Positions 856 to 35,071 of a stretch of 35,266 nucleotides of DNA are shown here, one piece after another. Made by a program: the position numbers and the translations under genes. The stretch is from NCBI GenBank assembly GCA_007132905.1, contig SLNR01000106.1, positions 1-35,266 of the forward strand. The letters run 5' to 3'. Every line of letters begins with the position of its first letter. The stretch's first letter is position 1. Below the pieces are notes generated by a model, which worked only from the letters and a program-made list of their open reading frames with translations, searched no databases and was not told where the DNA came from. This DNA is from Candidatus Sumerlaeota bacterium. Its GTDB lineage: Bacteria; Bacillota; SLNR01.

Positions 856-859
856 AACA

Positions 860-1740: not shown

Positions 1741-2276
1741 AGCCCATGAGCAGAATCACCATCATTATTTCGCAATTTGCCTTTGTTTTAGCGGTTGTCT
1801 ATGGGCTTTATATCGTAATACACGGCCATTTGACTCCCGGGGGCGGCTTTCAAGGAGGAGCCATTCTAGCATCAGCGGTAGCGATGGTGTTAGTGGCTTT
1901 TGGGGAAAAAGACATCAAGTCTTTACTGCCCCAAAAACTCGATGTCGTTTATGTTGCGCTAGGGGTCTTTATGTTTCTATCAATTGCCTTTCTCATAATC
2001 ATTCCTGAAGGGGCAAAAATTGAGGGTTCCGTTTTTGCTTCTATTTACAATGCCTTTGCCGGACCCGGAGGATTATTTGGCTATCAGACGCCAATTGGAC
2101 CGAACGATGGGTATCTTAATACCGGCGGTATTGTTTCTGTGAAAAGCGTTATCACAGGGTTGGAAGTAATAGCCGCTCTATATATCATTTTAAAGGTTAT
2201 GTTTTGGGCCGAAAATGATGTTTTATCCAAAGATGAGAGTGGTCTGATGAACTCGGGAGGTGACCACAATGCATAA
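1737..2276 (+). CDS. mbhF: MbhF / MrpB-like antiporter subunit
   Basis: HGHLTPGGGFQGGAILASA motif of MnhB/MrpB; ATGA overlap. Confidence 0.9.
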   Translation: MKPMSRITIIISQFAFVLAVVYGLYIVIHGHLTPGGGFQGGAILASAVAMVLVAFGEKDIKSLLPQKLDVVYVALGVFMFLSIAFLIIIPEGAKIEGSVFASIYNAFAGPGGLFGYQTPIGPNDGYLNTGGIVSVKSVITGLEVIAALYIILKVMFWAENDVLSKDESGLMNSGGDHNA

Positions 2277-2613
2277 TATGCCGTATATCGCTGCCGGAAC
2301 ATTGGCCATATTTGGTTTGTACATTATACTTTTCCAGCGAAATCTAATTAAAATTGCTATCGGCCTGAGTTTGCTGGAAATTGGCGTCAATTTGTTTCTT
2401 GTGTCACTGGGATATCGAGAAGGTGGTCAAGCACCGGTCTATACCATGTCGCCAATGACAGGTGAAATGGTGCTCCCGGTACCACAGGCCCTCACACTGA
2501 CGGCTATCGTCATAGGCTTTGCAACAACGGCTTTGCTTTTGGCGATTATCGTTGGTATTTATAGGCACTACGGAACACTTGATATCGCTGAAGTAAGGAG
2601 GTTGCGCGGATGA
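2269..2613 (+). CDS. mbhG: MbhG / MrpC / NuoK-like subunit
   Basis: ATG 2269 preceded by gggaggtgacc; 3-TM NuoK-like (NLIKIAIGLSLLEIGVNLFLV ... QALTLTAIVIGFATTALLLAI). Confidence 0.9.
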   Translation: MHNMPYIAAGTLAIFGLYIILFQRNLIKIAIGLSLLEIGVNLFLVSLGYREGGQAPVYTMSPMTGEMVLPVPQALTLTAIVIGFATTALLLAIIVGIYRHYGTLDIAEVRRLRG

Positions 2614-4178
2614 GTGAATTGTTAAACCAGTCAGTAATACTCGCAATAGCTATCCCTTTAGTCGGCGCATTTTTAGCTCCTGTGATTAATGCCATAGGGA
2701 AAAAACTGACTAAGATATGGTTGGTAGTTGTTTTCTCAGCTACGATGGGCGTCGTTGTTTACAATTTATACAAAGTTCTAACTTTGGGAACGCAAATTTA
2801 TGTAGTGGGCGGAGAGAATGTTACCCTTCCGCTTTTGTCGGGAATGGCAGTCCCAATCCGCATTATTATGCACCTTGATGCGCTGAGTGCGTTTATGGCT
2901 TTCTCCGGAACGCTGGTTGCTCTTTCAGTCGCAGTGTATTCGGCGGCCTTCATGAACAAGTCGACGGCAGGCGACAAGTATGACACGCTGCTTATGCTGC
3001 TTCTTGCGGCCATGATGGGCATGGTAATGACAGGGGACGCATTTAACTTCTTTGTTTTTCTTGAGATTGCAGGGATCGCCACAGCTGTCTTAGTGGCTTT
3101 TTGGAGAAATCGCGCCGAAGCTTTTGAAGCTTCATTTAAGTATACGGTTGTCGGTTCCATTGGGGCCTTGATGTTCCTTATCGGAGTTGCTTTCTTGTAT
3201 TCTAAGTATGGTGTCCTGGACATGGGCGCGATCGCGGGCCGCATGGATATTTCGGTTGTTGATAAAATCGCCCTCGGACTTATGGCTGTTTCGCTTGCCA
3301 TGAAAGCCGGAGCTGTTCCTATGCATATGGCGACGCCTGATGCATACCAGCAGGCTCCCGCCTCCATCACAGCGTTTTTAGTCTGCGTGAGTCAAGCTAG
3401 CCTCTACGGTCTGTTTAGGGTTCTGTTTACCGTATTCGGGCTTTCAATGAACGTCGAAACGGTGGGTTGGCTTATCATTGTCCTTGGCGTATTGTCTATG
3501 TTCATAGGCGTTACCATGGCACTCAAGCAGCATGATATAAAACGGTTAATGGCCTATCACAGTGTCTCCCAGACAGGCTATATGCTTATGGGAGTGGGTG
3601 TAGGTCTGGCCGTGCTGAGAATGCCTGAAGCGTTTGAGGCCTTTGGATTCGGAGCTATGCAGGGAGGCATCTTTCACATCATTAACAATGCTTTATATAA
3701 AGGCTTGTTGTTTTTAACAGCAGGAGCTGTCTTCTATGCGACCGGAAAGGATGATTTAGATGAGATGGGTGGTCTTGCCCATAGCATGAAATACACGACC
3801 ATCTTCTATATTATCGGGGCGGCGGCCATTGCCGGCATACCTCCTTTTAACGGCTTTGCTTCCAAACTTATAATTTATCAGTCTGTGTTTGCCTTTAATC
3901 CTCTGCTGGCTATTATTGCCATGGTGGTTAGTATAATGACATTGGCTTCGTTCATAAAAGTATTTCAAGGTGCTTTTTTAGGGCCAAAGCTTGCGGCGTT
4001 TGAGAAAGCGAAAGAAGTACCGACCAGTATGCTAATTGGCATGGGAGTATTGGCCGTCATGATTGTAGTATTTGGTTTATTCCCGAATTTAGTGGTGGAT
4101 AATCTGGTAAGCCCGGCCGTCCAGGCTTTGGTTGATCGGGCCGGATATATTGGTGTTATAGTTGGGGGAGGGATGTAG
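2610..4178 (+). CDS. mbhH: MbhH / MrpD / NuoN-like proton-translocating antiporter subunit
   Basis: 522 aa, many TM helices; NDH-antiporter motifs (KAGAVPMHMATPDAYQQAPASITAFL, HDIKRLMAYHSVSQTGYMLMG). Confidence 0.95.
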   Translation: MSELLNQSVILAIAIPLVGAFLAPVINAIGKKLTKIWLVVVFSATMGVVVYNLYKVLTLGTQIYVVGGENVTLPLLSGMAVPIRIIMHLDALSAFMAFSGTLVALSVAVYSAAFMNKSTAGDKYDTLLMLLLAAMMGMVMTGDAFNFFVFLEIAGIATAVLVAFWRNRAEAFEASFKYTVVGSIGALMFLIGVAFLYSKYGVLDMGAIAGRMDISVVDKIALGLMAVSLAMKAGAVPMHMATPDAYQQAPASITAFLVCVSQASLYGLFRVLFTVFGLSMNVETVGWLIIVLGVLSMFIGVTMALKQHDIKRLMAYHSVSQTGYMLMGVGVGLAVLRMPEAFEAFGFGAMQGGIFHIINNALYKGLLFLTAGAVFYATGKDDLDEMGGLAHSMKYTTIFYIIGAAAIAGIPPFNGFASKLIIYQSVFAFNPLLAIIAMVVSIMTLASFIKVFQGAFLGPKLAAFEKAKEVPTSMLIGMGVLAVMIVVFGLFPNLVVDNLVSPAVQALVDRAGYIGVIVGGGM

Positions 4179-4179
4179 G

Positions 4180-4503
4180 ATGGTATTATTTACAGGGACT
4201 GGTTACTGGAATCCTTTGTTTTGGGTCATCGCTTTTGTGATTGCCGTTGGGATAGGCCTTGTTTTGGTAGCCGGCGCCCCTAAGGGCAAGCGCAACACAG
4301 GCGATGCCGGTATGCCTTTCTTGTCCGGTAACCCTGAAGAAATTAAAAAGAATGTGAAGGTTTCCAATATGTTTTGGGGCCTTATGGAAGCACTAAAAGG
4401 GTATTTTAAGATTATGGATGACATGCATACAGGGATCCTTCACGACTACGTTTTTTGGTTTGTAGCTGTGCTGGCCTTTTCCCTGATCATTGTCCTGTTT
4501 TAG
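4180..4503 (+). CDS. mbhI: MbhI-like membrane subunit
   Basis: Position between MbhH and MbhJ; two predicted TM segments; ATG 4180 chosen over track start 4162. Confidence 0.75.
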   Translation: MVLFTGTGYWNPLFWVIAFVIAVGIGLVLVAGAPKGKRNTGDAGMPFLSGNPEEIKKNVKVSNMFWGLMEALKGYFKIMDDMHTGILHDYVFWFVAVLAFSLIIVLF

Positions 4504-4515
4504 GGAGGTGTTTAG

Positions 4516-4956
4516 ATGGCTAAAGCAATCAATGAGTATTTTCAAAGGTCTTTGTGGGTTTTCCATGTTAACACAGGCTCATGCAATGCTTGTGATATAG
4601 AAATACTGGCAGCACTCACTCCGCGATACGATGTAGAGCGTTTTGGCATTAAGAAAGTCGCCTCACCCCGTCACGCCGATGTCCTTTTAGTGACAGGGCC
4701 GGTAGTAAAAGGAATGGACGAAAGGCTTAAACGGATTTATGCCCAAACTCCGGAGCCTAAAGTTGTCATGGTTATTGGAAGCTGCGGGTCAAGCGGTGGG
4801 GTTTTTTATGACTCTTATAACACAACAGGACCTGTAGATTCAATATTACCTGTAGCGGTATATGTACCCGGGTGTCCGCCAAGGCCAGAGGCAATATCCT
4901 ATGGCGTTGTGAAGGCTTGGGTGATTTTGGAGGAATTGCGGGCCGCAAAATCGTGA
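4516..4956 (+). CDS. mbhJ: MbhJ, [NiFe]-hydrogenase small subunit (NuoB-like)
   Basis: CNAC ... GSCGSSGG ... PGCPPRPEA: four Cys ligands of the proximal [4Fe-4S] cluster. Confidence 0.95.
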   Translation: MAKAINEYFQRSLWVFHVNTGSCNACDIEILAALTPRYDVERFGIKKVASPRHADVLLVTGPVVKGMDERLKRIYAQTPEPKVVMVIGSCGSSGGVFYDSYNTTGPVDSILPVAVYVPGCPPRPEAISYGVVKAWVILEELRAAKS

Positions 4957-4970
4957 AAGGAGGCTGCGCT

Positions 4971-5495
4971 ATGAAAAGATTAAATGGCGAAGAATTTATT
5001 GATTTTATTAGAGAACGAATCGGAAAGATGCTTGAAAACAGCCGGATAGAGACGAAAAAGGCTGGTCTTGCCAAACTAGAATATGAGGTGGTTTGGCTTA
5101 CGATTGATCGAGAAGCGGTGGTTGATTGCGTCAAAGCAATGAAAGAATTAGACCATCCAATGCTTTCGGTCATGTCTTCATACGATGCAGGGGAGAATGT
5201 CGTTGTTTTATACCATATGGCATTATACCGGACGGTAAAGAATGCTACTCTTCATGTAGAATTTGAGGTCAAAGTGCCAAAAGATGATCTTTGGGTTCCT
5301 TCTATCACAGGAGAAATACCGGGGGCGGCTGTGACCGAACAAGAAAAAAGAGAGATGATGGGGTTGGAAATACGGGGACTGGAGGATATGGATAATGTGT
5401 TCCTTCCGACTGATTTCCCGAAGGATGTTTACCCTTGGCGGAAAGATGAAACCGGAGTAGATGAGAAAATGCCTGAAAGAGGAGGTGACGATTAA
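4971..5495 (+). CDS. mbhK: MbhK (NuoC-like) subunit
   Basis: ATG 4971 with RBS aaaggaggctgcgct; NuoC-like end (PGAAVTEQEKREMMGLEIRGLEDMDNVFLPTDFP). Confidence 0.88.
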   Translation: MKRLNGEEFIDFIRERIGKMLENSRIETKKAGLAKLEYEVVWLTIDREAVVDCVKAMKELDHPMLSVMSSYDAGENVVVLYHMALYRTVKNATLHVEFEVKVPKDDLWVPSITGEIPGAAVTEQEKREMMGLEIRGLEDMDNVFLPTDFPKDVYPWRKDETGVDEKMPERGGDD

Positions 5496-6727
5496 TGGAA
5501 AAGCACGAATATTCCTATAGAGTACCAATAGGCCCCAATAATCCTGCTTTAAAGGAACCCGTATCTTTTGATCTAGAAATCGAAGGAGAAGAAATCGTTG
5601 ATGTTACAATTAAACCGGGCTGGGTTCATAGAGGAATCGAGTATTTGGCCACAAAAAGAAATCCGATTCAGGTAATCTACCTTGCAGAAAGGATATGCGG
5701 AATATGTTCAGTGACGCATGCCTACAACTATGTGAGGGCTGTTGAGGATGCCATGGATATGGAAATACCGGCTCGTGCCGAATACATCAGGACCATTGTG
5801 GCCGAACTTGAGAGAATCCATTCTCATATATTGTGGGCTGGATATGCCGCGCATATTATTGGTTTTGACACTTTATTCCATTATTCGTGGAGAGAAAGAG
5901 AAACAGTACTAGATGTTTTAGAAACACTTTGCGGGAACCGGGTTAATTACGGCATTATGACAATCGGTGGCGTACGGCGGGACATGACCTCTGAAGTTGA
6001 GAAACTAACAAGAGAGAATTTAGATCATTGGCTATCCATTTTTAATCGATATGTGGAGGCTTTTGTTGAAGATCCGGTCATTCAAGCCAGGACAAAAGGT
6101 GTCGGAATATTGACGGAGAAAGAAGCCTACGAATACTGTGCCCTAGGACCGACTGTGAGAGGATCGGGGATTCCTGCCGATGTAAGACAAGATCAACCCT
6201 ACAGCGCCTATGGGGATGTAGGATTTGAGGCAATTGTTCCCCAGAAGATTTTGGGCAAAGTGACAGGAGATGTTTTCGACAAAGTTGCGGTTCGGCTTTT
6301 CGAAGTAAAGCAATCGGTGGAGATTATTCAGAAATGTTTGGATGGTCTTCCTGAAGGAGATATTGTGAAGGATTCGAAAGTTGCCAAAATGCTGCCGGCT
6401 TTGAAAAAAGCGGACGGCGAAGGGTTTAGTAGTATCGAGGGGCCAAGGGGGGAAGACTTCCATTATATAAAACTTGAAGAAGGGAATGAGAATATAACAT
6501 CTTGGAAGGTTCGAGCTCCCACTTATTCTAATTTGATGACTTGGAAGCCAATGATGATTGGATCCCAAATTGCGGATGTGCCTCTTATTGTGGCTTCGGT
6601 GGATCCTTGTATGTCGTGTACTGATCGTGTGACCATCATTGATCGTAAGAAAGGAACAAGCTCTGTGCTGACTGAAGAGGACCTCCGTCAAAAATGCACT
6701 GAAAAAACAAGGAGGTTGATGAAATAA
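5495..6727 (+). CDS. mbhL: MbhL, [NiFe]-hydrogenase catalytic large subunit (NuoD-like)
   Basis: N-terminal RICGICSVTH and C-terminal DPCMSCTDR: both CxxC Ni-Fe ligand motifs intact. Confidence 0.96.
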   Translation: MEKHEYSYRVPIGPNNPALKEPVSFDLEIEGEEIVDVTIKPGWVHRGIEYLATKRNPIQVIYLAERICGICSVTHAYNYVRAVEDAMDMEIPARAEYIRTIVAELERIHSHILWAGYAAHIIGFDTLFHYSWRERETVLDVLETLCGNRVNYGIMTIGGVRRDMTSEVEKLTRENLDHWLSIFNRYVEAFVEDPVIQARTKGVGILTEKEAYEYCALGPTVRGSGIPADVRQDQPYSAYGDVGFEAIVPQKILGKVTGDVFDKVAVRLFEVKQSVEIIQKCLDGLPEGDIVKDSKVAKMLPALKKADGEGFSSIEGPRGEDFHYIKLEEGNENITSWKVRAPTYSNLMTWKPMMIGSQIADVPLIVASVDPCMSCTDRVTIIDRKKGTSSVLTEEDLRQKCTEKTRRLMK

Positions 6728-7752
6728 TGAACCCTGCTTTAGATGTTGCTTTAAAAATAGTAGGCGGTATCCTCATAGCGTTAATCAGCATATTCATTGG
6801 CCTGATTTTCAAAGGAATCGACCGAAAAATTCATGCTCGAATGCAGGGGAGAATTGGACCTCCTATATGGCAGCCTTTTTGGGATCTGCGAAAATTAATG
6901 ATAAAGGAAAGCATGGTCCCGGAAAATGCAGTCCCATGGCTTTATAATGCCGCGCCTTTGCTTGGATTGGCTGCGACCATTACCATCCTGTTCTATCTGC
7001 CCATAGGCGGTCTAGCCCCCATCGCAGAGGGAGCTGGAGACTTGATACTAATCTTGTATCTGCTGACTTTGCCGGCCGTCATGATGGTAATAGGAGGTTT
7101 TTCATCAGGTTCTCCTTTTGCCATTGTGGGAGCGCAGCGTGAAATGGTTATGATGATGAGTTATGAGTTTCCCTTGGCTGCTGTCATTGTAACAGTAGTC
7201 TGGAAGATCAATGCAGCGTTGGGTCCTGTCCTTCAAGCTGAAGGGCTAAAAGCCTTTTCGCTTTCGACACTCATGATCTTTCCCATTTGGGGGATTGTTG
7301 GTTTTGTCGGAGCGGCTGGTTTGTTATTGTGTTTAGGCGTGCTGCTGGCCGTAACGCCCGCTGAGTTGTCAAAGGTACCTTTCGATGCACCTGATGCCCA
7401 TGAAGAATTATCAGGAGGCTTTTTGGTAGAGTACTCTGGAAGGAATTTGGCTCTTTATTATTTAATGGAAGCGGCCAAAACCGTGGCAGTAACGGCTTTA
7501 ACAGTGGCCATATTTTTCCCTTACGGTATATCAGGATTATTTGGAATCAGTGGATTAGCTGCCCAAGCGGTTGATTTTGGCTTCTTTTGGGTTAAGGTGT
7601 TTGTTGTTATGTTAGTTTCGGTTACTTTTATTAGAACAGCTATTGCCCGGTTTAAAATTGATCAAATAGCGCAAGTCTTTTGGGCACCTGTTCTCATTGT
7701 TAGCCTGACAGGATTGTTGCTGGTTGCAGTAGATCACTTCCTGTTCTTCTAG
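6727..7752 (+). CDS. mbhM: MbhM (NuoH-like) membrane subunit
   Basis: NuoH-like motifs (ARMQGRIGPP, PFDAPDAHEELSGGFLVEYSG). Confidence 0.95.
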   Translation: MNPALDVALKIVGGILIALISIFIGLIFKGIDRKIHARMQGRIGPPIWQPFWDLRKLMIKESMVPENAVPWLYNAAPLLGLAATITILFYLPIGGLAPIAEGAGDLILILYLLTLPAVMMVIGGFSSGSPFAIVGAQREMVMMMSYEFPLAAVIVTVVWKINAALGPVLQAEGLKAFSLSTLMIFPIWGIVGFVGAAGLLLCLGVLLAVTPAELSKVPFDAPDAHEELSGGFLVEYSGRNLALYYLMEAAKTVAVTALTVAIFFPYGISGLFGISGLAAQAVDFGFFWVKVFVVMLVSVTFIRTAIARFKIDQIAQVFWAPVLIVSLTGLLLVAVDHFLFF

Positions 7753-7832
7753 TGTTTTTGAAGTGATAAAAAAAGTAGAGAAGAGCTTGAAATTGTAGGC
7801 TTTTTTGATTATCAGCGGGAGGTGATGCCAAG

Positions 7833-8426
7833 ATGACGGTAATGATGAGAGAAATTATTGCCCAGCTAGTAAGAAAGCCGGGAACGAATCCTTTTCCGGC
7901 TGTGTATGCTCCCAAATCTGTAACCGCTTTTTTGGAAGCGGTAGGTGAAGGCAAGGCGCAGTTACTGCCGCCTGTAACTCCTCCACCCGGAATGAGAGGG
8001 AAAATTGAATACGATAAGGCAAAGTGTATTGGATGCAAACTTTGCACGCAGGTTTGCCCGGCAAAGGCGGTTGTTTTTGTTCCCGATACCAAGAAAGTGA
8101 AGTTTCATGTTGATAGATGCTCGTTTTGCGGGCAGTGTGCGGATATTTGTCCGGTCAAAGTAATTGTCATGTCAGATAACTTCCTTTTGGCGTATTCAGA
8201 TAGAAAAGGTCCAGAGGCGATTATTGATCCGCCAGAAGAAAAAGAATCAGCTGATAAAGATAAAAAAAAAAAAAAAAAAGGTTTTGATCAGAAAAAAAAG
8301 ACCTGTCTGGTACGCCGAGTGAAGGCTGCCAGCGGGCCTTTTTTATTACCGGATTTTTTGTCGCTTTTTTTTAGAAAGAAGGCGAAGATCACAAAACAGG
8401 TATATTTTGCCAAGAATGCTTTTTAA
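7833..8426 (+). CDS. mbhN: MbhN (NuoI-like) 2[4Fe-4S] ferredoxin subunit; true C-terminus uncertain
   Basis: CIGCKLCTQVCP and CSFCGQCADICP; RBS gggaggtgatg. Residues after the A18 tract (8262-8279) look like read-through into a terminator. Confidence 0.9.
   Translation: MTVMMREIIAQLVRKPGTNPFPAVYAPKSVTAFLEAVGEGKAQLLPPVTPPPGMRGKIEYDKAKCIGCKLCTQVCPAKAVVFVPDTKKVKFHVDRCSFCGQCADICPVKVIVMSDNFLLAYSDRKGPEAIIDPPEEKESADKDKKKKKKGFDQKKKTCLVRRVKAASGPFLLPDFLSLFFRKKAKITKQVYFAKNAF
8282..8351 (+). terminator. Probable intrinsic terminator at the end of the hydrogenase operon
   Basis: aaaaaaaagacctgtctgg ... gccagcgggcctttttt: imperfect stem (one mismatch, a wobble and a bulge) followed by T-run. Confidence 0.45.
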
Positions 8427-16398: not shown

Positions 16399-16421
16399 TT
16401 TTTGCAAAGGAGGGGTATTTG

Positions 16422-16898
16422 GTGGGCAGCGACCTGGTTATAGACGCAAAAGCAAAAGCAAGCCAGCTGCACTGGGAAGGATTCAGCTGAGCAGAGGCCG
16501 TCTGGCTTAGTTTAAGTCAGGATTTAAGGGAAGAGCAAAGTCGATTTGGTTCAAAATTAGCGGTTGGTTTTGCGGGAGGTATAGGATCAGGTTCGATCTG
16601 TGGTGCTGTGGCAGGCGGGGTGATGTCTTTAGGAGCTTTTTTTGGTAGATACCCCGAAGATCCTCGTTTTGGGCCTCTCAGAGGGCTTGTTCAGTTGTAT
16701 TACCAGGAGATGATTGAACTGCACGGAAGTGCTTATTGCCGGGACTTGAAACCTCAAGATGATACCCAGAAGAAAGTTTGTAATGACATTATATCTTCAT
16801 CGGCTGAAATAGCCGCTCTCATTATCGAAAATAACAAGGCTATGGAAGGATCAATGGATAAAGCAGAGAAAGTTGATGTCAAGCAAGAAACCAAATAA
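16422..16898 (+). CDS. C_GCAxxG_C_C family selenoprotein (UGA=Sec at codon 23); ORF track shows only the part from 16608
   Basis: GTG 16422 with RBS aaaggagggg; translation MGSDLVIDAKAKASQLHWEGFS-U-AEAVWLSLSQDLREEQSRFGSKLAVGFAGGIGSGSICGAVAGGVMSLG...GSAYCRDL...KKVCNDII; TGA 16488-16490 sits at the first Cys of the family signature, the rest of the signature is intact. Confidence 0.85.
16502..16520 (+). promoter_or_regulatory. Putative bacterial SECIS element
   Basis: CTGGCTTA-GTT-TAAGTCAG, 8-bp stem with one G.U pair; loop begins with GU, 19 nt after the TGA. Confidence 0.7.
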
Positions 16899-17053: not shown

Positions 17054-18127
17054 TTACTTATTAAAATCAAAATCATATTCCTTCGCGTTTTCTTTTCCTT
17101 GAAGAACGCGAAGAGCTCCCAAAGCCAATGATTCAAGTTCTTTTTCTCCCGGGTAAGTCTTGACGGGGGCAATAAAGGAGACACTATTTTTTATCCAGCC
17201 GGTGAAAAGCTTTGAATGGGCAATACCACCGGTCAAGGCAATAGCATCAACATCTCCGTTTAAAACGGTTGCCATCGCCCCGATGGCTTTGCATACTTGG
17301 TACGCCATAGCTCTATAGATAAGTTCTGCCTGTTCATTTCCTTTTTCTACCATTTTTTCAACTTCTTGCGCATCTTTTGTACCAAGATAAGCGTAAATCC
17401 CGCCTTCTCCGAAAAGCTTTTTGATGACATCTTCCATGTTGTAATTGCCTGAGAAACAAGCCCGGACTAACCCCCCAAGTGGTGGCACAGCTCTTTCGGG
17501 GGTAAAGAGACCGCCTTCTTCTATATTGACATCGACGACTTTCCCTTTTTTATGAGCGCCGACCGAAATGCCTCCGCCCATATGAGCCACAATAAGATTT
17601 GCTTCTTCATAGGGCTTTTCAAGATCAGCGGCTGCCTTTCTGCCGATCGCTTTCTGATTTAAAGCATGAAAACCGCTTCTCCTTGGCAATTCGGGCCAGC
17701 CTGAAAATCTGGCGATATCTTCATATTCATCAACGGTTACCGGGTCAACGACAAAAGAAGGAATATTTAGTTGTTTCTCTAAATCATTAGCAATAATGGG
17801 TCCTAAATTGGCGGCGTGGCGGCCTGGTCGCGATCGTTCTACCATTTCACTGTTTACCCTGTATGTTCCACTGGGGATAGGGCCTAAATCGCCGCCTCGA
17901 CCGGAAACGGCATCGAGTGTTTTCAGCTCAATATTTTTATCACGAAGGGTTTCGAGTATGCAGTTCTTTCGATAATCGTACTGATCAGCTAATGTTTCAA
18001 AAGGGGCTAAATCCTCTGCACTATGGGAAATTGTTTCTTGAAGGATGAGTTTGTCATTGTCGTAGAGAGCGAATTTGGTAGAAGTAGAGCCCGGGTTAAT
18101 TGATAGAATCCGATAAGTTTTATCCAT
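17054..18127 (-). CDS. buk: Butyrate kinase family protein (paralog 1)
   Basis: LSINPGSTSTKFALY, VSGRGGDLGPIPSGTY, HMGGGISVGAHKKGKVVDVN, LTGGIAHSK. Confidence 0.92.
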   Translation of the reverse strand: MDKTYRILSINPGSTSTKFALYDNDKLILQETISHSAEDLAPFETLADQYDYRKNCILETLRDKNIELKTLDAVSGRGGDLGPIPSGTYRVNSEMVERSRPGRHAANLGPIIANDLEKQLNIPSFVVDPVTVDEYEDIARFSGWPELPRRSGFHALNQKAIGRKAAADLEKPYEEANLIVAHMGGGISVGAHKKGKVVDVNIEEGGLFTPERAVPPLGGLVRACFSGNYNMEDVIKKLFGEGGIYAYLGTKDAQEVEKMVEKGNEQAELIYRAMAYQVCKAIGAMATVLNGDVDAIALTGGIAHSKLFTGWIKNSVSFIAPVKTYPGEKELESLALGALRVLQGKENAKEYDFDFNK

Positions 18128-19501: not shown

Positions 19502-20575
19502 TTAATCAGTGGTGGGGTATTCTTTTGCTTTTTCCCCACCGGTAAGTACCCTCAAGGCGCCAAAAGCCAAGGATTCTAGTTCTTTTTCGCCGGGGAAAAC
19601 CATAACAGGTGCGATATAGCTAATGTCTTCTTTGATCCAGTCGGTCAGCATTTTAGAATGAGAACATCCGCCGGTTAGAATGATTGCGTCCACTTTTCCT
19701 TTTAAGACAGTGGATAAGGCTCCGATCGCTTTGCTGACTTGATATCCCATTGCTTTGAAAATAAGCTCGGCTTCTTCATTCCCATCTTGAACCATTTTTT
19801 CGACTTCGCGCAGATCTTTGGTTTTCAAGTGAGCTTGGATGCCGCCGTTGCCCAACATCATCTTCATGATCTCGCCTGCTGTATAGTCCCCGGAAAAACA
19901 AGTGCGCACCAGACCACTGAGGGGAGGGCAGGCCCTTTCGGGAGTAAAAAGTCCGCCTTCGGCGATATTTACGTCAATGATTCTTCCTTGTCGATGGGCT
20001 CCAACAGAAACGCCGCCGCCGATGTGGGCGACAACCAAATTTAGTTCTTCATAAGGTTTCCCAAGTTCTTCGGCAGCTTTGCGGGCGACAGCTTTGTGGT
20101 TTAAAGGATGAAAACCGCTTTTTCTGGGCAATTCCGGCCAGCCGGAGATCCTGGCGATATCTTCGAACTCGTCAACGGAGGTGGGATCTACGACGAAACC
20201 CGGAATGTCAAATTCTTTCGAGAGTTCATCGGCAATTAACGGACCAAGCACGGAGGCATGGCCGCCGGGGGAATTGCGAACATCCTCTACCATGGTTTCA
20301 TTGATGCCAAGAGTCCCGCTTGATACGGGCTTCAGTCCCCCTCCGCGGCCCGATACGGCATCAATTGTGTTGAGATTGATGTCTTTTTCTTTTAGTAAAC
20401 CTAGAATTGTTTCTTTACGCATCTCATATTCATCAGTGACTTTCTGGAAAGGAGCTAAATCTTCGGCCGAATGGTGGATCGTTTCCTGCGTTAATAGTTC
20501 TTCATTTTCGTACACAGCCACCTTCGTGGAAGTAGACCCGGGGTTTATAGCCAGAATGCGAAACTTTTTGCTCAT
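19502..20575 (-). CDS. buk: Butyrate kinase family protein (paralog 2)
   Basis: LAINPGSTSTKVAVY, VSGRGGGLKPVSSGT, HIGGGVSVGAHRQGRIIDVN. Confidence 0.92.
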   Translation of the reverse strand: MSKKFRILAINPGSTSTKVAVYENEELLTQETIHHSAEDLAPFQKVTDEYEMRKETILGLLKEKDINLNTIDAVSGRGGGLKPVSSGTLGINETMVEDVRNSPGGHASVLGPLIADELSKEFDIPGFVVDPTSVDEFEDIARISGWPELPRKSGFHPLNHKAVARKAAEELGKPYEELNLVVAHIGGGVSVGAHRQGRIIDVNIAEGGLFTPERACPPLSGLVRTCFSGDYTAGEIMKMMLGNGGIQAHLKTKDLREVEKMVQDGNEEAELIFKAMGYQVSKAIGALSTVLKGKVDAIILTGGCSHSKMLTDWIKEDISYIAPVMVFPGEKELESLAFGALRVLTGGEKAKEYPTTD

Positions 20576-20600: not shown

Positions 20601-21674
20601 TCATTCTTCTACTTTTCCACTTGGATACATCTTTGCTTTTTCTTCGCCGGCGAGAACTCGAAGTGCTCCGAGTGCCAGTGATTCCAGCTCGTTTTCACCG
20701 GGGTAAACCAGGATGGGGTCGATGTAGTTACAATAATCTTTCATCCAAGTAACGAACCTTTTCGAGTGGGCAATTCCTCCGGTTAAAACGAGCGCATCGA
20801 CACTGCCTTTCAGGGCAGAATAGCAAGCACCGACCGATTTTGCAATGTTATAAGTCATAGCTTTATAGACAAGTTCAGCTTCTTCATTGCCATCCTCGAT
20901 CATTTTTTCTACATCGCGTACATCCTTCGTTTTGAAATAAGTGAACATTCCTCCTGCACCCATTAGTAGTTTTGCGATTTCCTTTTTGGTGTATTCTCCG
21001 GAAAAACACAATTCCAGCATGTCAAAAGCTCTGGGATTGACTCGTTCAGGAGAAAACAACGGTATTTCAACGTCAATGCACCGCCCTTTCTTATGGGGCG
21101 AAACAGAAATACCTCCTCCCACATGCGCAACAAGCAAATTGAGTTCTTCATAGGGCTTTTTTAAATCGCTAGCTGCCTTTCGAGCCGTTGCCTTGTGGTT
21201 TAAAGCATGAAAACCACTTCTTTTGGGTCGATCTTTAAGGCCGGATATGCGAGAAATTTCATCAAACTCATCGACATTGACCGGATCCACCATAAAGGCG
21301 GGGATGTTCAGTTCTTTGGACAGCTCAAAAGAGATCATGGGTCCTAGAATTGAAGCGTGCTGAATACGAGCATTTTTTGCATCATCGACTAATTCCTCAT
21401 TAACCCGAAAGGTCCCGCTTGGCACCGGTTTTCCTCCGCCGCCTCGACCCGAGATAGCATCAAGAGATGCTAAATCGACTCCTTTATCTTCTAGGGCTTT
21501 CATAACAGCTTCTTTGCGGTATTCATATTCATCAGCGACCTTTTCAAAAGGGGCAAGATCCTCATGAGTATGGTCAACCGCGTGCTGCATGATACAATCG
21601 TTGCCTTCGTACAACGCGATTTTCGTCGAAGTCGAGCCTGGATTGATGGAAAGTATTCGATGTTTTTTTCTCAT
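20601..21674 (-). CDS. buk: Butyrate kinase family protein (paralog 3, divergent)
   Basis: LSINPGSTSTKIALY, ISGRGGGGKPVPSGTF, HVGGGISVSPHKKGRCIDVEIPLFSPER. Confidence 0.9.
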   Translation of the reverse strand: MRKKHRILSINPGSTSTKIALYEGNDCIMQHAVDHTHEDLAPFEKVADEYEYRKEAVMKALEDKGVDLASLDAISGRGGGGKPVPSGTFRVNEELVDDAKNARIQHASILGPMISFELSKELNIPAFMVDPVNVDEFDEISRISGLKDRPKRSGFHALNHKATARKAASDLKKPYEELNLLVAHVGGGISVSPHKKGRCIDVEIPLFSPERVNPRAFDMLELCFSGEYTKKEIAKLLMGAGGMFTYFKTKDVRDVEKMIEDGNEEAELVYKAMTYNIAKSVGACYSALKGSVDALVLTGGIAHSKRFVTWMKDYCNYIDPILVYPGENELESLALGALRVLAGEEKAKMYPSGKVEE

Positions 21675-27304: not shown

Positions 27305-27494
27305 GTTTTATGACGGCTAAATTACAGGTTTTTCATTGCGCTTTAGTAACCTGCATAGATTTTTGAAAGAAGCATTCATTATGGTAATTTTTAGCAGTAT
27401 CATGATCGTTTTAAAAAAAGACAGGATTTAGGTACAATTGGTCGAAAAAGGTAATGATTTGTTATTCAAAAGTGAACTGATACGGAGGGGAATT

Positions 27495-28970
27495 ATGACA
27501 ACAAAAAAAGCAATCGTAATCGGGGCTGGATTCGGGGGTATGACAGCTGCTGCTTTGCTGGCTCGTGACGGTCTAGACGTGACTGTTGTAGAAAAAAACG
27601 AAATGGCAGGCGGGCGTGCTCGCGTTTGGGAACAGGATGGTTTTGTCTTTGACATGGGGCCTTCCTGGTATCTCATGCCGGAAGTATTTGAATCTTATTT
27701 TGAGTCTCTGGGGAAGAAACGGCATGATTACTATCATTTGGAAAAGTTAGACCCTTATTACCGGGTTTTTTTCAGCCCGAAAGAAAGTGTTGATATTACA
27801 TCTGATATGAAACAAAATCAAGAGTACTTTGAAAAACTAGAAAGTGGTGGAAGCGGCAGATTGAAAAAATATTTGGATGCGGCCGAATACAAGTACGATG
27901 TGGCCATGAAGGAATTTATGGAAGTAGAATATACTTCTGTATTTCAGTTTCTTAATCGAAAGATGATGACAGAAGGCCTTAAACTTAATATGTTCTCTCC
28001 GCTTGACAAATACGTTCGCAAATATTTTAAAGACCGCAGGGCTCGGCAGATTCTTGAGTACGCCATGGTTTTTCTTGGAAATAGCCCGCATAATGCCCCT
28101 GCTTTATATTCGATTATGTCTCATGTTGACTTTAACTTAGGTGTTTGGTATCCAGTGGGCGGGATGGGAAAAGTGGTGGCCGGCATGGTCCGCGCGGCAG
28201 AAGAGGTGGGCGTTCAATTTCAATATAATTTACCCGTCGAACGAATCATTGTCCGCGACAATAAGGCGGTGGGCGTGGAAACCAAAGAAGGGGAGATGTT
28301 GGCTGATGTAGTTCTCGTTAATGCAGATTATGCCCATAGCGAGCTAGAACTTTTATCACCTGCTCACCAAACTTACCCAAGCTCTTACTGGAATAAGAAA
28401 GTGATTGCTCCTTCCATGCTGCTTGCCTATCTAGGCGTAGATAAAAAAATTGACAAACTAGCCCACCACACCCTTTATTTTGCCGAAGATTGGGATTTGC
28501 ATTTTAAGCAAATATTTGATGATCCGGCCTGGCCAGAAGATCCTTGTGTCTATGTGGGAGCCACTTCAAAAACGGATCCAAGCATGGCTCCTGAAGGGAA
28601 AGAGAATGTTTTTTTCCTTATTCCGATAGCCCCGGGCTTAGAGGACAATGAAGAGATCAGGGAAAAGGCCTTCCAACAAGGCATTAGCCAGCTGGAAAGA
28701 CTTGTTGGAGAATCGATTCAAGATCATATAATCGTTAAGCGCTTGTTTTCTGTAAATGATTTCAAAAATGAGTACAATTCTTATAAAGGGACCGCTTTGG
28801 GGATGGCGCATACTTTGAATCAAACAGCTGTTTTTCGCCCGGCCCACAAGAGCAAAAAAGTGAAAGGGTTATATTATACAGGGCAGTATGCTCACCCGGG
28901 CGTAGGAGTTCCCATCGTTGTTATTTCCTCACAAATAGTATCAAAATTGATTAGAGAGGATTTGGCATGA
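27495..28970 (+). CDS. crtI: Phytoene desaturase/dehydrogenase (CrtI family)
   Basis: ATG 27495 with RBS cggagggg; VIGAGFGGMTAAALLARDGLDVTVVEKNEMAGGRA dinucleotide-binding motif; YYTGQYAHPGVGVP C-terminal motif. Confidence 0.93.
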   Translation: MTTKKAIVIGAGFGGMTAAALLARDGLDVTVVEKNEMAGGRARVWEQDGFVFDMGPSWYLMPEVFESYFESLGKKRHDYYHLEKLDPYYRVFFSPKESVDITSDMKQNQEYFEKLESGGSGRLKKYLDAAEYKYDVAMKEFMEVEYTSVFQFLNRKMMTEGLKLNMFSPLDKYVRKYFKDRRARQILEYAMVFLGNSPHNAPALYSIMSHVDFNLGVWYPVGGMGKVVAGMVRAAEEVGVQFQYNLPVERIIVRDNKAVGVETKEGEMLADVVLVNADYAHSELELLSPAHQTYPSSYWNKKVIAPSMLLAYLGVDKKIDKLAHHTLYFAEDWDLHFKQIFDDPAWPEDPCVYVGATSKTDPSMAPEGKENVFFLIPIAPGLEDNEEIREKAFQQGISQLERLVGESIQDHIIVKRLFSVNDFKNEYNSYKGTALGMAHTLNQTAVFRPAHKSKKVKGLYYTGQYAHPGVGVPIVVISSQIVSKLIREDLA

Positions 28971-29806
28971 ACAAGCCTTTTGAGCGAATTTTTAGTAAAG
29001 GAAGTAAAACTTACTTTACCTCCAGTCTTTTCTTTCCGCCTGATGTGCGTCAAGATGTTTTTCGGCTTTATGCTTTTGTCCGGACGGCTGATGATTTTGT
29101 AGATCAAAAACCTCCAGATAAGGAAGGGTTTTATCGTTATGTAGACCTTTATCGGTTTGCCGAAGAAAAAGGGACTTCAAAAGAGCCCATTATTGACTCG
29201 TACATCTCTTTGAGCAAAGAAAGAAATTTTGACCCGCAGTGGACAAATGCTTTTTTACGTTCAATGGAGATGGATCTAAAAAAAATCCACTACGAGACAA
29301 TGGAAGAGCTGGTAGAATATATGTATGGATCCGCTGAAGTTATCGGTTTATTTATGGCTAAGATCCTCGGTCTTCCCAAAGAAAGCGAAATGAGCGCCAG
29401 ACTCCAGGGCCGATCAATGCAGATGATTAATTTTATTCGCGATATTGATGAAGATTTGCGATTAGGAAGACAGTATCTTCCTCTCGACGGCAGGAGAGAG
29501 GAACTTCTCAATGAAAACACAGCCAGAAATAATCCTGATGAATTCAAGACATACATTGATAAGATGCTCTCTTATTATTATTCTTGGCAGGAAGAAGCAG
29601 AAAAGGGTTATGAATTTATTCCAAAGAATTATTTGATTCCTATCAAAACGGCCGCCGACATGTACACTTGGACGGCCAAAATGATTGAAAGAAATCCCCC
29701 TATCGTCTATTCGAAAAAGATTAAACCAACTCGAGGGAGAATTATCCTCTCGGCGTTGAAAAATTGGCTCTGGTTGGGAAGGGGAATGCATAGCAATGTT
29801 GGATGA
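28967..29806 (+). CDS. crtB: Phytoene synthase (squalene/phytoene synthase family)
   Basis: FRLYAFVRTADDFVDQ and NFIRDIDEDLRLGRQYLP Asp-rich motifs; ATGA overlap with crtI. Confidence 0.93.
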   Translation: MNKPFERIFSKGSKTYFTSSLFFPPDVRQDVFRLYAFVRTADDFVDQKPPDKEGFYRYVDLYRFAEEKGTSKEPIIDSYISLSKERNFDPQWTNAFLRSMEMDLKKIHYETMEELVEYMYGSAEVIGLFMAKILGLPKESEMSARLQGRSMQMINFIRDIDEDLRLGRQYLPLDGRREELLNENTARNNPDEFKTYIDKMLSYYYSWQEEAEKGYEFIPKNYLIPIKTAADMYTWTAKMIERNPPIVYSKKIKPTRGRIILSALKNWLWLGRGMHSNVG

Positions 29807-30854
29807 AATCAGTTCGGCAAAAACAGAAATATCGAAGTATTTATCGGGTTATTTCGCAAAAAGCAGCGAAGAGACAGTTCATGTAAACAAGTGGGCTCCT
29901 GACTTGCATAACAGATTAGAAAAATTTATGACGCAGGCAAAGATGCTTCGGGGAGGCTTGATTGTAACTACTCATAAATTGCTCAACGGGAAAAATGATG
30001 AGGCGGCGCTAATGTCGGCGGCGGCTATCGAATTAATGCATAGTTCACTTCTCATTCACGATGATATCATGGACCGTGATCAACTCCGCCGGGGAGAGAG
30101 TACGGTCTATTATCAATACGAAAAGTTAGCAGAAGAAAGAAAATATTTGCAGCCGGCTGAATTTGGCCGGGCCATGGGAATATGCGCCGGAGATGAAGCG
30201 TTTTTTATGGCTTATGATATCTTGAGCCAGCTGCCGGTCGAAAAAGACATGCTTCACACTCTTTTAGCAAAATTCACGAAAGAAATGAAGCAGGTGGGTC
30301 TAGCACAGATGGAGGATGTCCATTTCGGGCATAATAAGGATGAACCAACCGAACAAGAAATTTTAAAAGTGTTCTATTTCAAGACAGCTAGATATACCTT
30401 TTCTCTTCCTTTCTTCATGGGAGGATGCCTGGTCGGCCTATCTAATTCAGAACTAGTTTCCTTAGAGGCCATCGGCGAAGCATTGGGAGTGATTTTTCAA
30501 ATTAAAGATGATGAACTGGGCTTGTTTGGCAGTGAGAAGGTTATCGGAAAACCTTCCGGCTCGGATTTGAGAGAGGATAAAAAGACACTGTTTCGCTTGT
30601 ATCTCAAAGAGATGGCAGGGGCTAAAGAACAATCAAAGCTTAAAAAGATCTATGGTTCTTTGGAGATCACGGAGGCAGAAGTTCAATATGTAAGAGATTT
30701 ATGTGAGGAATTGGGTGTAATGGTAAAAGTCCAACGAAAAGTGAGAGAATATGCTGATTATGTTCAAAATGAAGCCGCTTCTCTTAACGAAGCACAAGCC
30801 TTAAAGCCCCTAATATCCGATCTTTTGGCTTACAGCCTGACAAGAGACTATTAG
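29796..30854 (+). CDS. crtE: Polyprenyl (geranylgeranyl) diphosphate synthase
   Basis: HSSLLIHDDIMDRDQLRRGEST (FARM) and FQIKDDELGLFG (SARM). Confidence 0.92.
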   Translation: MLDEISSAKTEISKYLSGYFAKSSEETVHVNKWAPDLHNRLEKFMTQAKMLRGGLIVTTHKLLNGKNDEAALMSAAAIELMHSSLLIHDDIMDRDQLRRGESTVYYQYEKLAEERKYLQPAEFGRAMGICAGDEAFFMAYDILSQLPVEKDMLHTLLAKFTKEMKQVGLAQMEDVHFGHNKDEPTEQEILKVFYFKTARYTFSLPFFMGGCLVGLSNSELVSLEAIGEALGVIFQIKDDELGLFGSEKVIGKPSGSDLREDKKTLFRLYLKEMAGAKEQSKLKKIYGSLEITEAEVQYVRDLCEELGVMVKVQRKVREYADYVQNEAASLNEAQALKPLISDLLAYSLTRDY

Positions 30855-30905
30855 TGACAATTAGAAAGAAAGTGATGCAAAATTTCAGAATGAATAGAGG
30901 GGGCG

Positions 30906-31583
30906 TTGATGCTGTCTTATTTACTGCTGAATGGATTGATCATTTGCATTCCTTTGCTTCTTTCATTTGAGCATAGGGTGTATTATGTTGGTCTTTGGCC
31001 GGCTGTGTTTTTATCAATACTGGTTGTGGGCGGCCTTTATGTGCTCTGGGATGCGTATGTAACCAAACGCGGCGACTGGCGTTTTAACAAAAAATATTTG
31101 ACCGGTTACAGATTATTCGGTCTGCCCATTGAGGAGATTCTTTTTTTTGTGACGGCTCCTTTTAGCTGTATATTTATTTACGAAGCGATCCAATATTTAG
31201 TACCCTTATCTTTGCTGCCGTTTCATTCTTTTTTCTATATCTTGGTAGGAATGGCGTGTCTGTTTTTTGCCTGGCGGTATAAGCGCAAAGATTATACAAG
31301 AACGGTGATGACCGTAACCGGGATTTCCATCATTGTTTTTTCTTTCCTGGGAGAATTCATGTTGGCAACCAACCATTTTTGGATTACCATGGGTTTGTCA
31401 TTTATTGCTTTTTACATCTTTAATGGCTATCTTACCGGGATTCCTATTGTCATTTACAACCCGGAGGCCATCACAGGTAGGCGGATCAAAACGATACCAA
31501 TAGAAGACTTTTTTTATAATTTTGCTATGTTAGGTTCTTATTTTCTTGTGTACTTCTATGCCAAAGATTTTTTGGGCTTATGA
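30906..31583 (+). CDS. Lycopene cyclase, fused CrtYc/CrtYd-type domains
   Basis: Two internally repeated blocks: YLTGYRLFGLPIEEILFF and AITGRRIKTIPIEDFFYNF; multi-TM. Confidence 0.88.
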   Translation: MMLSYLLLNGLIICIPLLLSFEHRVYYVGLWPAVFLSILVVGGLYVLWDAYVTKRGDWRFNKKYLTGYRLFGLPIEEILFFVTAPFSCIFIYEAIQYLVPLSLLPFHSFFYILVGMACLFFAWRYKRKDYTRTVMTVTGISIIVFSFLGEFMLATNHFWITMGLSFIAFYIFNGYLTGIPIVIYNPEAITGRRIKTIPIEDFFYNFAMLGSYFLVYFYAKDFLGL

Positions 31584-31616: not shown

Positions 31617-31642
31617 AAAAAAAACAGACGAAAATTCGTCTG
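31617..31642 (-). terminator. Intrinsic terminator of the minus-strand msrA operon
   Basis: CAGACGAA-AA-TTCGTCTG stem followed on minus strand by T8. Confidence 0.85.
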
Positions 31643-31751
31643 CCAAAAGGTGCGAGCCAGTCATACCTTTTTGCAAAGAGAATAAGAGTTTTGCAATCAG
31701 GATCTAGGTGTGTTGTGTTCTTACCAATCGGACGAATAGAAGCTAGAACAG

Positions 31752-32414
31752 TTAATAGATGGAAAAGATCCTATTTTTGACTTTGCTGTGAAAAGGCAGG
31801 TCATGGAGAATGTTTTCTGCCAGTTCCAATGACCCTTGACCCGAAAGCAACCCATTAATTTTGGTGGCGGAGGTTGAATGGTTAAAGTCCTTGAAATAGA
31901 CGAAAATATTTTCGAATTCTTTCATGACCAAAGGATTTTGTTGGAGATAGTACTTTTGGTGATAGTCTTCGGCTGTCGTAAAAAGATCAAGCTTTCTTAT
32001 GTCGGTCAAAAGAGGCCGATTTTTATTTTCTTCCAATTCTTCTTTGAGCTTTTGGGCTTTCACCAGTTGGTTTTCATCGTGACATAGTATGATGGATTGA
32101 TATTGATCTGACCAGCTGGGCAAAAAAGCATTGTGCTGCTGGAAAAACTCCTGTAACAAACAATCGAAGGTGATTTCTTCAGGATTAAAATCAAACTGCA
32201 AGCATTCTGTGTGGTTTCCGATATTCTCATAGGTTGGCTCAGCTGTATCGCCGCCTGCATAGCCGACTCTTGTTCGGAAAACACCTTCTAATAGCCCGAA
32301 CCGGGCTTCCGGTTTCCAAAATCATCCCAGTCCGAAAGTGGCTGTTTCATATTCTGATGGCTGACGGCGATCCATCAGCGGAAGTTCTTTTTTATCGTTG
32401 TTTAGTTTATTCAT
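31752..32414 (-). CDS. msrA: Selenoprotein peptide methionine sulfoxide reductase MsrA (UGA=Sec at codon 31); ORF track shows only the C-terminal part
   Basis: ATG 32414; MNKLNNDKKELPLMDRRQPSEYETATFGLG-U-FWKPEARFGLLEGVFRTRVGYAGGDTAEPTYENIGNHTECLQFDFNPEEI...; TGA (minus 32324-32322) replaces catalytic Cys of GCFW; reading frame otherwise continuous to 31752. Confidence 0.88.
32293..32307 (-). promoter_or_regulatory. Putative bacterial SECIS element of msrA
   Basis: minus strand AGCCCG-GTT-CGGGCT, perfect 6-bp stem, loop starts GU, 20 nt after TGA. Confidence 0.7.
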
Positions 32415-33810
32415 AATCATCACTCTCCGATAACATAGCGGTATTGAAAATACCTTCTGATAGGGTTGGGTGAATATGAATCATGTCTTGAATATCGGCT
32501 ACGGTCCCTCCATTGTCCATGGCATAGACAAATTCATGGATGATCTCTCCTGCTTGTTCGCCGATGATATGAGCGCCGATAATTCTTTTACCGGGTTTTT
32601 CCGCTATCATTTTAATGAAACCTTCTGTATTTTCTGTTACTTTCGCTCTTCCGATTTTTTTGAAAGGCACAGAGTATACTTCATAAGAAATTTCTTTATT
32701 GTCTGCTTCTTGTTCTGTTATTCCTACCGAGGCCATTTCCGGATCGGTGAATACGGCCCAGGGGACAAGAAAATGACGGTTTGAAATTTTTTTCTTATTT
32801 ACTAAATGCTTAGCTAAATAAAGACCGTCATGGCGTGCTTTGTGGGTAAACATGGCCCCTCCAATGATATCTCCGATGGCCCAAACTCCTTCTTTACTGG
32901 TGGCATAAGCATCATCTACTTTGATAAAACCTCTCTTATCAACGGCAATATCAGCTGCCTCTAAATTAAGCAAGTCGCTGTTTGGTTTTCGACCCGCAGC
33001 AATCATTAACGAATTCGTTTGGATGGATCTTTCTCCATCGGAAGTATCCAGGTGAAGAAGAATTTGTTGATGCCGGGCAGAGACTTGATTGACCTTGGCA
33101 TTTGTCAAAATTTCAATCCCTTCATCTTTAAGGACTTCTGAGAAAAGCTTGGATATATCCGGATCAAGGTTTGCTAAAATTGTGTCGTTCATCTCGATTA
33201 TGCTGACCTTTGTCCCCAGCCGATTAAAGATTTGAGCAAATTCCACGGCTAAAACTCCGCCGCCGAGGATGGTGATTTTTTCCGGAAGGGATTCAAGATC
33301 AAGTGCTTCTCGTGATGTCATATAATCAATTTCATCTAGCCCCGGTATAGGCGGCACAGCACTGCGCGCCCCGGCGGCGATGACAATTCGGTCGGCTTCT
33401 AAAGTTTCCTCATTCACAACAATTTGATGAGGACTTTTAAAAGAAGCTTCCCCGCGAAACAAAGTAATGTTGGGGTATTTTTGGGGAAATTTTTCACTTC
33501 CTGAGCGGAGTTTGCGAATAAGTTTGTCTTTTCTTTTTTTTATACTCGACCAGTCTCCGCTTGCTTGCGAGATTCTAATTCCGTGTTCTGATGCTTTTTT
33601 TATTTTATGCAGTAAATGAGCCGACGAAAGAAGGGCCTTGGTAGGCATGCAGCCGAAATTGGTGCAGGTACCACCCATAAACTCTTGTTCTACCATAGCG
33701 ATCTGCCAGCCTTTTTCTGCCGGCGCCCTTGCTGTGCTGATGCCGGCTGCGCCTCCTCCAATGATGATCAAATCAAAATTTTTCACGGTTTTCATCTCCT
33801 TAGAAGTCAA
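32407..33810 (-). CDS. Pyridine nucleotide-disulfide oxidoreductase (dihydrolipoamide dehydrogenase/mercuric reductase-like)
   Basis: IIIGGGAAGISTA, GGTCTNFGCMPTK redox CxxxxC, C-terminal HIHPTLSEG; start may be an internal ATG/GTG. Confidence 0.92.
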   Translation of the reverse strand: MTSKEMKTVKNFDLIIIGGGAAGISTARAPAEKGWQIAMVEQEFMGGTCTNFGCMPTKALLSSAHLLHKIKKASEHGIRISQASGDWSSIKKRKDKLIRKLRSGSEKFPQKYPNITLFRGEASFKSPHQIVVNEETLEADRIVIAAGARSAVPPIPGLDEIDYMTSREALDLESLPEKITILGGGVLAVEFAQIFNRLGTKVSIIEMNDTILANLDPDISKLFSEVLKDEGIEILTNAKVNQVSARHQQILLHLDTSDGERSIQTNSLMIAAGRKPNSDLLNLEAADIAVDKRGFIKVDDAYATSKEGVWAIGDIIGGAMFTHKARHDGLYLAKHLVNKKKISNRHFLVPWAVFTDPEMASVGITEQEADNKEISYEVYSVPFKKIGRAKVTENTEGFIKMIAEKPGKRIIGAHIIGEQAGEIIHEFVYAMDNGGTVADIQDMIHIHPTLSEGIFNTAMLSESDDYE

Positions 33811-35071
33811 ACATTTCGTAATGGATATTCTTTTTATCGATGTCGGTTTCTTTTAATTCCTTGAGAATGCTTTGCGTCATGGGCGGTGGCCCGCAGACAA
33901 AGAATTGAGTGTAGCTTTCCCAGGGGTGGTACTTTTTGATCAAATCGGCGGTAATAAAGCCTTTTTCTCCGGGCCAATCTTTTTGATCTGACATTACGAT
34001 CACCAGAGAGAAAGAAGGCATTTCATCCAGCAAATCCTTTAGTTCGTCCTGAAAACAGAGATATTCTTCACTGCGATTTCCCCAAAAGAATGTTATGCGC
34101 TGGTCGTCAAAGTTGTCCTTTAAATAGCGAAGCATGCTCATAAAGGGAGTAATACCGATGCCTCCGGCAATAAAGATATTATCAGAGGAAACAACATTAA
34201 GGTTGCTGAAGATGCCGTAAGGAGCATCTATGAAAGCCTGGTCACCTTCTTTGGTATCTTTTATAGTCGAAGTAAAATCACCAAGCTCTTTTATGGTAAT
34301 GGCCGGTTCCTTAGATTCGGGACTTGATGTTATGGTAAATGGATGAGCTTCGGATAATTTCCCGTTTCTAAGCAGCTGAACAAAAAGAAATTGGCCGGGT
34401 TTATGGTCAATGTCGGGTCCTGAAAAAAGCAAAGACCAAATGTCTTTTGCTTCTTGCTTCACCGACGAGACAGTATAGGGTTGCCTGCGAATTAAAAAAA
34501 TCCGGTACAGTCGATAAAGCGTCAACGCCGCAAAGCCTGCCGCCATGGCCACCCAAACATAGTAAAAGAAAGAGCCGGGGTTAGCATAGTTAAAGGCATG
34601 GAGCAGAGCCAATGGGAAGATGACATAATTTATCAGGTGAATGTTTTTCCAGATCTGGTAAGGGAGTCGGATAAACTTGTAGGTTGAAGCGAGGCCGGCG
34701 GTCAAATACATTGCAAGAAGGACGACAATCCCAATAATCACATAAGTTGTGAAATTAAAATGCCCTAATCTTCTCCACTGGCTGTTTAATACAAGGGCTC
34801 CGTGAATTGTAAAAGCGAAAACCGCCGCTCTCCCAAAATATTGATGTAAGTGGAGCATTTTATCAAGTCCGAAACCATCTTCCAAGATTTTCAATCGCGA
34901 ACTTAGTATGTATTGAACAAAGAAGAAAAGCATCCCTAAGATGGCGGCAATATTTTGGATAGGTCGGAGGTTATCCACGATGGTTGCTCCAAATGTGGTG
35001 GTAGCGGCCCACACGTAAATGAAAAGCAAAGAGAAACCAGCAAACAATTGCAAAAACAAAGTATATTTCAT
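33800..35071 (-). CDS. Ferric reductase-like membrane cytochrome b with FNR-type FAD/NAD domain
   Basis: TM helices with paired His (LHLHQYFGRAAVFAFTIHGA, WKNIHLINYVIFPLALLHAF); HPFTITSSPES, GGIGITPFMSML, FVCGPPPM. Confidence 0.9.
   Translation of the reverse strand: MKYTLFLQLFAGFSLLFIYVWAATTTFGATIVDNLRPIQNIAAILGMLFFFVQYILSSRLKILEDGFGLDKMLHLHQYFGRAAVFAFTIHGALVLNSQWRRLGHFNFTTYVIIGIVVLLAMYLTAGLASTYKFIRLPYQIWKNIHLINYVIFPLALLHAFNYANPGSFFYYVWVAMAAGFAALTLYRLYRIFLIRRQPYTVSSVKQEAKDIWSLLFSGPDIDHKPGQFLFVQLLRNGKLSEAHPFTITSSPESKEPAITIKELGDFTSTIKDTKEGDQAFIDAPYGIFSNLNVVSSDNIFIAGGIGITPFMSMLRYLKDNFDDQRITFFWGNRSEEYLCFQDELKDLLDEMPSFSLVIVMSDQKDWPGEKGFITADLIKKYHPWESYTQFFVCGPPPMTQSILKELKETDIDKKNIHYEMFDF

Follow-up and report, generated by a model that had tools for sequence, protein, structure and literature searches.

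The DNA analysed here, referred to as the window, is a complete contig of 35,266 nucleotides (C45) from the draft genome of a Candidatus Sumerlaeota bacterium (2.07 Mb, 94.5% complete, 6.28% estimated contamination). Toward its right end, three overlapping genes on the minus strand form what appears to be a redox operon. The last of these encodes an MsrA interrupted by a single in-frame TGA, and the unit closes with a terminator-like hairpin. The features of this region are as follows.

31623..31644, minus strand: terminator-like hairpin (9 bp stem, loop of 4) with a T run, closing the three-gene unit at its 3' end
31752..32414, minus strand: msrA, predicted selenoprotein MsrA of 220 aa (frame, translation, Pfam PMSR, AlphaFold model)
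32293..32307, minus strand: predicted bacterial SECIS apical hairpin (6 bp stem AGCCCG/CGGGCU, loop GUU)
32322..32324, minus strand: UGA, predicted Sec codon at catalytic position 31, GLG-U-FW (same codon in homologues)
32425..32428, minus strand: possible Shine-Dalgarno sequence GGAG, 4 nt before the ATG at 32420 and 10 nt before the ATG at 32414
32407..33810, minus strand: dihydrolipoyl-dehydrogenase / mercuric-reductase-like flavoprotein (TIGR01350, 458.5 bits, cut-off 408.8)
33800..35071, minus strand: NOX-like flavocytochrome with ferric-reductase transmembrane and FAD/NAD(P) domains (Pfam, PDB sequence match)

Elsewhere in the window, the plus strand carries Mrp antiporter/NADH-dehydrogenase-like and NiFe-hydrogenase-like large subunit genes at 83-8426, which suggests a membrane-bound hydrogenase or Mbh/Mbx-type complex. 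A carotenoid cluster follows at 27438-31583 (plus strand), in what is probably an anaerobe, and encodes a CrtI-type phytoene/3,4-desaturase (NF058655, 704 bits), a phytoene synthase, a prenyl synthase and a lycopene cyclase domain protein. Three ORFs of 357 aa each lie on the minus strand (17054-18127, 19502-20575 and 20601-21674); the first two are paralogues of the acetokinase family that share 65% identity and are separated by a split chromate transporter pair.

The msrA frame extends from an ATG at 32414, with an alternative in-frame ATG at 32420, to a TAA at 31754-31752. An initial sequence-only reading had proposed that the table-11 ORF at 32201-31752 is the C-terminal part of an MsrA whose frame continues upstream through a TGA. 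Re-reading of the frame confirmed this downstream portion together with the coordinates, the strand and the position of the TGA (32324-32322, residue 31), which is the sole stop between the ATG at 32414 and the terminal TAA. When msrA was resampled by a first-order model, only 2 of 20,000 sequences contained no TAA or TAG and at most one TGA; given this result, and with homology to the whole family extending to either side of the TGA, the open frame is more than chance.

The Pfam PMSR domain (PF01625) matches residues 24-159, directly across the TGA (1.3e-34; 120.1 bits against a cut-off of 23.7), and the corresponding codon of homologues is likewise TGA, in agreement with the proposal that the TGA occupies the codon of the catalytic Cys. 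The narrower MsrA model NCBIfam TIGR00401 scores 103.8 bits, just below its cut-off of 108.1. PF01625, the GxFW motif and the catalytic Glu and Tyr place the protein in the MsrA family. Every residue that is invariant in an alignment of 40 rows is retained, including Sec31, F32, W33, Y52, E70, Y105 and H152, while K34 (G in 36 of the 40 rows), E36 and N67 are unusual. Two of these, G34K and D67N, are changes at near-invariant positions, and G34K adjoins the active site. The remaining Cys residues, at positions 71, 85 and 111, are each rare or absent at that position in the family, and no Cys lies C-terminal to residue 111; none of the three is conserved or C-terminal, and the sequence-only reading had placed no other Cys in a typical C-terminal resolving position. 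In a tree, the window MsrA groups within the family, with an uncertain placement and a long branch (length 1.4; median 0.33).

An AlphaFold model of the protein (mean pLDDT 95.7) was compared with known structures. The seven best PDB fold matches are all chains of the Clostridium (Alkaliphilus) oremlandii MsrA (CoMsrA), including 4lwj, with TMq values of 0.80-0.82 over about 200 columns; the alignment with 4lwj covers about 200 columns out of 205 residues. Matches to MsrAs without a helical domain reach a TMq of about 0.6. A C-terminal helical domain is present in the model, with helices at 161-170, 174-178, 181-190, 196-204 and 210-217.

Comparison with homologues showed the TGA to be a recurrent feature. 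A close homologue (41-47% identity) occurs in three of 60 further genomes from the phylum, in each case with one in-frame TGA at the same codon, and one of the three is fused to MsrB. The best 80 named loci span about eleven bacterial phyla and the haloarchaea, and 69 of them have TGA at the catalytic codon. Taken together with the window gene and its three relatives, 73 of 84 loci carry TGA and 11 carry Cys, the latter comprising seven haloarchaeal forms, two from Halanaerobium, one from Dehalococcoidia and one from Acetothermia; since the named loci were chosen by their likeness to Sec-MsrA, this Sec/Cys ratio does not hold for MsrA at large. On these comparisons, the Sec form of MsrA is plainly common, occurring in many bacterial phyla that are often anaerobic. 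The sequence-only reading, which knew Sec-MsrA from a few organisms, had called it plausible and rare; it is less rare than that.

If the UGA directs Sec insertion, a SECIS hairpin is expected just 3' of it. The bacterial SECIS model of PMC13188914 calls for an upper stem of 4-16 bp, a loop of 3-9 nt with a G in its first two positions, a spacing of 16-37 nt and a minimum free energy at or below -7.5. Numbered from the U of the UGA, the predicted window hairpin spans bases 18-32; 20 nt separate its loop from the UGA, and its local minimum free energy is -9.6 kcal/mol. It conforms to the model in all four respects. Its stem pairs recur across the family: among the 73 Sec relatives, +22/+28, +21/+29, +20/+30 and +19/+31 are formed in 72, 72, 71 and 59, and the corresponding numbers among the 11 Cys relatives are 9, 8, 1 and 2. 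The Gly codon within the stem is GGG in 71/73 Sec loci and 1/11 Cys loci (Fisher 2.6e-10 for that pair), and GGG makes up just 38 of 291 Gly codons slightly downstream in the same Sec genes; the loop sequence GTT is found in 70/73 and 4/11, respectively. All of these counts include many Sec loci that are related rather than independent, and seven of the 11 Cys forms belong to one haloarchaeal group. The two outer stem pairs vary in type (G-C, U-A and U-G; C-G, U-A and A-U), a pattern that looks like covariation. No other evidence speaks as strongly for decoding of the UGA as Sec as this conservation of the putative stem at synonymous sites. The GGG codon for Gly, nine codons past the UGA, may also serve as a useful marker for truncated msrA genes that have been mis-annotated.

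Searches based on covariance models and on folding energy were less informative. An Rfam scan of the window returned nothing at the gathering threshold, which is not evidence against a SECIS element because bacterial SECIS elements are short and variable. The region after the TGA is not unusually stable relative to dinucleotide shuffles (z -0.85). Relative to synonymous shuffles that use the codons of the family, a test biased by a codon pool that already contains the SECIS codons, z was about +0.6 for the window and -0.24 on average for the Sec forms. As the energy does not fall below that of the shuffles, the case for the SECIS hairpin rests on comparison rather than on stability.

The sequence-only reading had made its claim depend on Sec machinery being present in the genome, and SelA, SelB, SelD and tRNA-Sec were all found, on contigs of the draft bin other than that of msrA. 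On contig C46, selA (586.6 bits, cut-off 268), selB (376.5 bits, cut-off 242) and tRNA-Sec (75.3 bits, gathering threshold 47; ARAGORN anticodon tca) are adjacent, while contig C145 carries selD (381.7 bits), itself with an in-frame TGA in GSGU. The tetranucleotide signatures of C45, C46 and C145 correlate mutually at r 0.63-0.70, within the range of other contigs in the bin, as against 0.24-0.53 in comparisons with three other genomes of the phylum, so that the assignment of these contigs to one genome is supported by composition.

A second apparent selenoprotein gene lies on the window contig itself (16386-16898, plus strand; start probably near 16420-16423), with a TGA at 16488-16490 that would place Sec at the first redox Cys (GFSUAEAV) of a C-GCAxxG-C-C family protein (TIGR01909, 70.2 bits; PF09719). 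The use of Sec by this organism thus does not depend on binning alone. An Arsenate-reductase/Spx-like protein with a TGA in FYCFPTUNTCRKA, encoded on contig C113 (18560-18667), is likely a further selenoprotein of the same genome.

These observations lead us to propose that the gene encodes a C. oremlandii-type selenoprotein MsrA with Sec at residue 31, a reading to which we assign a probability of about 0.95. If the gene is expressed, as we infer, SelB carrying Sec-tRNA-Sec would bind the hairpin just 3' of the UGA and Sec would be inserted at residue 31. The selenolate would then attack the sulfoxide of methionine-S-sulfoxide, aided by Glu70 and Tyr105, releasing methionine and converting Sec to a selenenic acid. 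Because this MsrA appears to have no conserved resolving Cys, the selenenic acid would most likely be reduced by an external thiol protein, probably glutaredoxin-like. In the C. oremlandii Sec-MsrA, the selenenic acid is reduced by a glutaredoxin-like protein (PMC4333827, PMC4479559), and by analogy the window protein is probably a 1-Cys-type MsrA reduced in this way rather than through an internal resolving Cys. Reduction of the CoMsrA type is expected to use glutaredoxin and not thioredoxin. Two CxxC glutaredoxin-like proteins encoded in the genome are candidate reductants.

The genes upstream of msrA point to another conceivable source of electrons. The flavoprotein gene, whose product contains a CxxxxC motif (GGTCTNFGCMPTK) and a C-terminal HxHPT, has a stop that overlaps the msrA start by 8 bases (ATGAATAA), and is in turn overlapped by 11 bases by the flavocytochrome gene (Pfam Ferric_reduct 8.4e-13, NAD_binding_1 1.9e-21). 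In the PDB, the flavocytochrome is closest in sequence to the 8qt6 group, whose entries bear the name FAD-binding FR-type domain-containing protein and which we take to be Streptococcus pneumoniae NOX. This arrangement suggests that the three genes are transcribed as a redox operon with msrA last. It is a tentative and rather doubtful proposal that the flavoprotein, acting directly or via a small thiol carrier, regenerates Sec-MsrA and is paired with the NOX-like flavocytochrome in a dedicated system. A search for dihydrolipoyl-dehydrogenase-like genes near Sec-MsrA in the 80 named loci gave one weak match and no strong copy, so that the link between reductase and MsrA is drawn only from the gene overlap; MsrB lies within a few kb of Sec-MsrA in 13 of these loci. 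Homologues of the flavoprotein are common in the phylum, which says nothing about their linkage to msrA. Were the operon partner the reductase, it would represent a new way of reducing a 1-Cys selenoprotein MsrA and would show how such a protein is recycled in at least one lineage.

Several other explanations of the TGA were considered. The gene might be a Cys MsrA of the ordinary kind in which a nonsense mutation or a sequencing error has left a pseudogene or a mis-read gene, as could be suspected from a lone TGA in a draft assembly, the long branch and several changes at near-invariant positions. We regard this as very unlikely, given that the TGA coincides with the catalytic codon, just as it does in 72 further loci, that the SECIS-specific GGG and CGG codons, atypical of the Cys relatives, are present, and that the rest of the 220-codon frame is open with every invariant catalytic residue in place. 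It is more improbable still that translation ends at the TGA and that the ORF downstream of it, which starts at TTG, is the only one used: the product would be without the catalytic residue and would miss the fold's first strand and helix, and homology continues through the TGA. A changed genetic code in which TGA is read as an ordinary amino acid would also yield an in-frame TGA in a conserved gene, and was rejected as the least probable of all, since 9 of the 26 annotated window genes terminate in TGA and the codon is thus also a stop in this organism. Just two in-frame TGAs flanked on both sides by family homology were recognised in the window, each at the position of a redox Cys, and the genome encodes a complete Sec machinery.

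A different question is whether a selenoprotein is made whose main task is no longer the reduction of methionine sulfoxide. Such a divergent paralogue would have a different substrate or a different partner, perhaps the operon reductase. The long branch, G34K beside the active site, D67N, the unusual operon and the presence in the same genome of a second, ordinary Cys-type MsrA-MsrB fusion (contig C72) would all accord with such a shift. Against these stand the retention of Sec31, F32, W33, Y52, E70 and Y105 and of the helical domain, and we consider the shift unlikely, if less so than an error, an early stop or a changed code. A methionine sulfoxide-reducing selenoprotein MsrA is therefore the preferred reading.

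The biochemistry and structure of Sec-MsrA have already been described (PMC4333827, PMC4479559), and reviews list it (PMC13188914). CoMsrA (PDB 4lwj, 4lwk, 4lwl, 4lwm, 4u66, 4w8c) is the closest solved structure both by sequence (5e-38) and by predicted fold, and the window MsrA resembles it in the catalytic Sec within GUFW, the catalytic Glu, the C-terminal helical domain and the apparent lack of a C-terminal resolving Cys. The two differ in that they share about 37-38% identity, that the window protein has an N-terminal extension of about 15 residues and reads GUFWK where CoMsrA has GUFWG (the family usually has GUFWG/H), and that it has the non-conserved Cys 71, 85 and 111 where none occurs in CoMsrA (PMC4333827). 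Ordinary Cys MsrAs and MsrA-MsrB fusions (TIGR00401) share the catalytic domain and active-site residues, with Cys instead of Sec. In one other genome (G046, contig C22; L020 / L053), MsrB is fused in frame to Sec-MsrA, giving an apparent MsrB-MsrA(Sec) bifunctional selenoprotein. The Sec-MsrAs of Halobacteroidaceae (L056), Desulforamulus aeronauticus (L087), Desulfosarcina widdelii (L068) and G046 have the same TGA codon and share the SECIS stem and helical tail with the window MsrA; they differ from it in their gene neighbours, with MsrB nearby at some named loci and a dihydrolipoyl-dehydrogenase-like gene weakly matched near just one. Judged by these sequence comparisons, the window MsrA is a divergent addition to an already known family that is more widespread than had been supposed.
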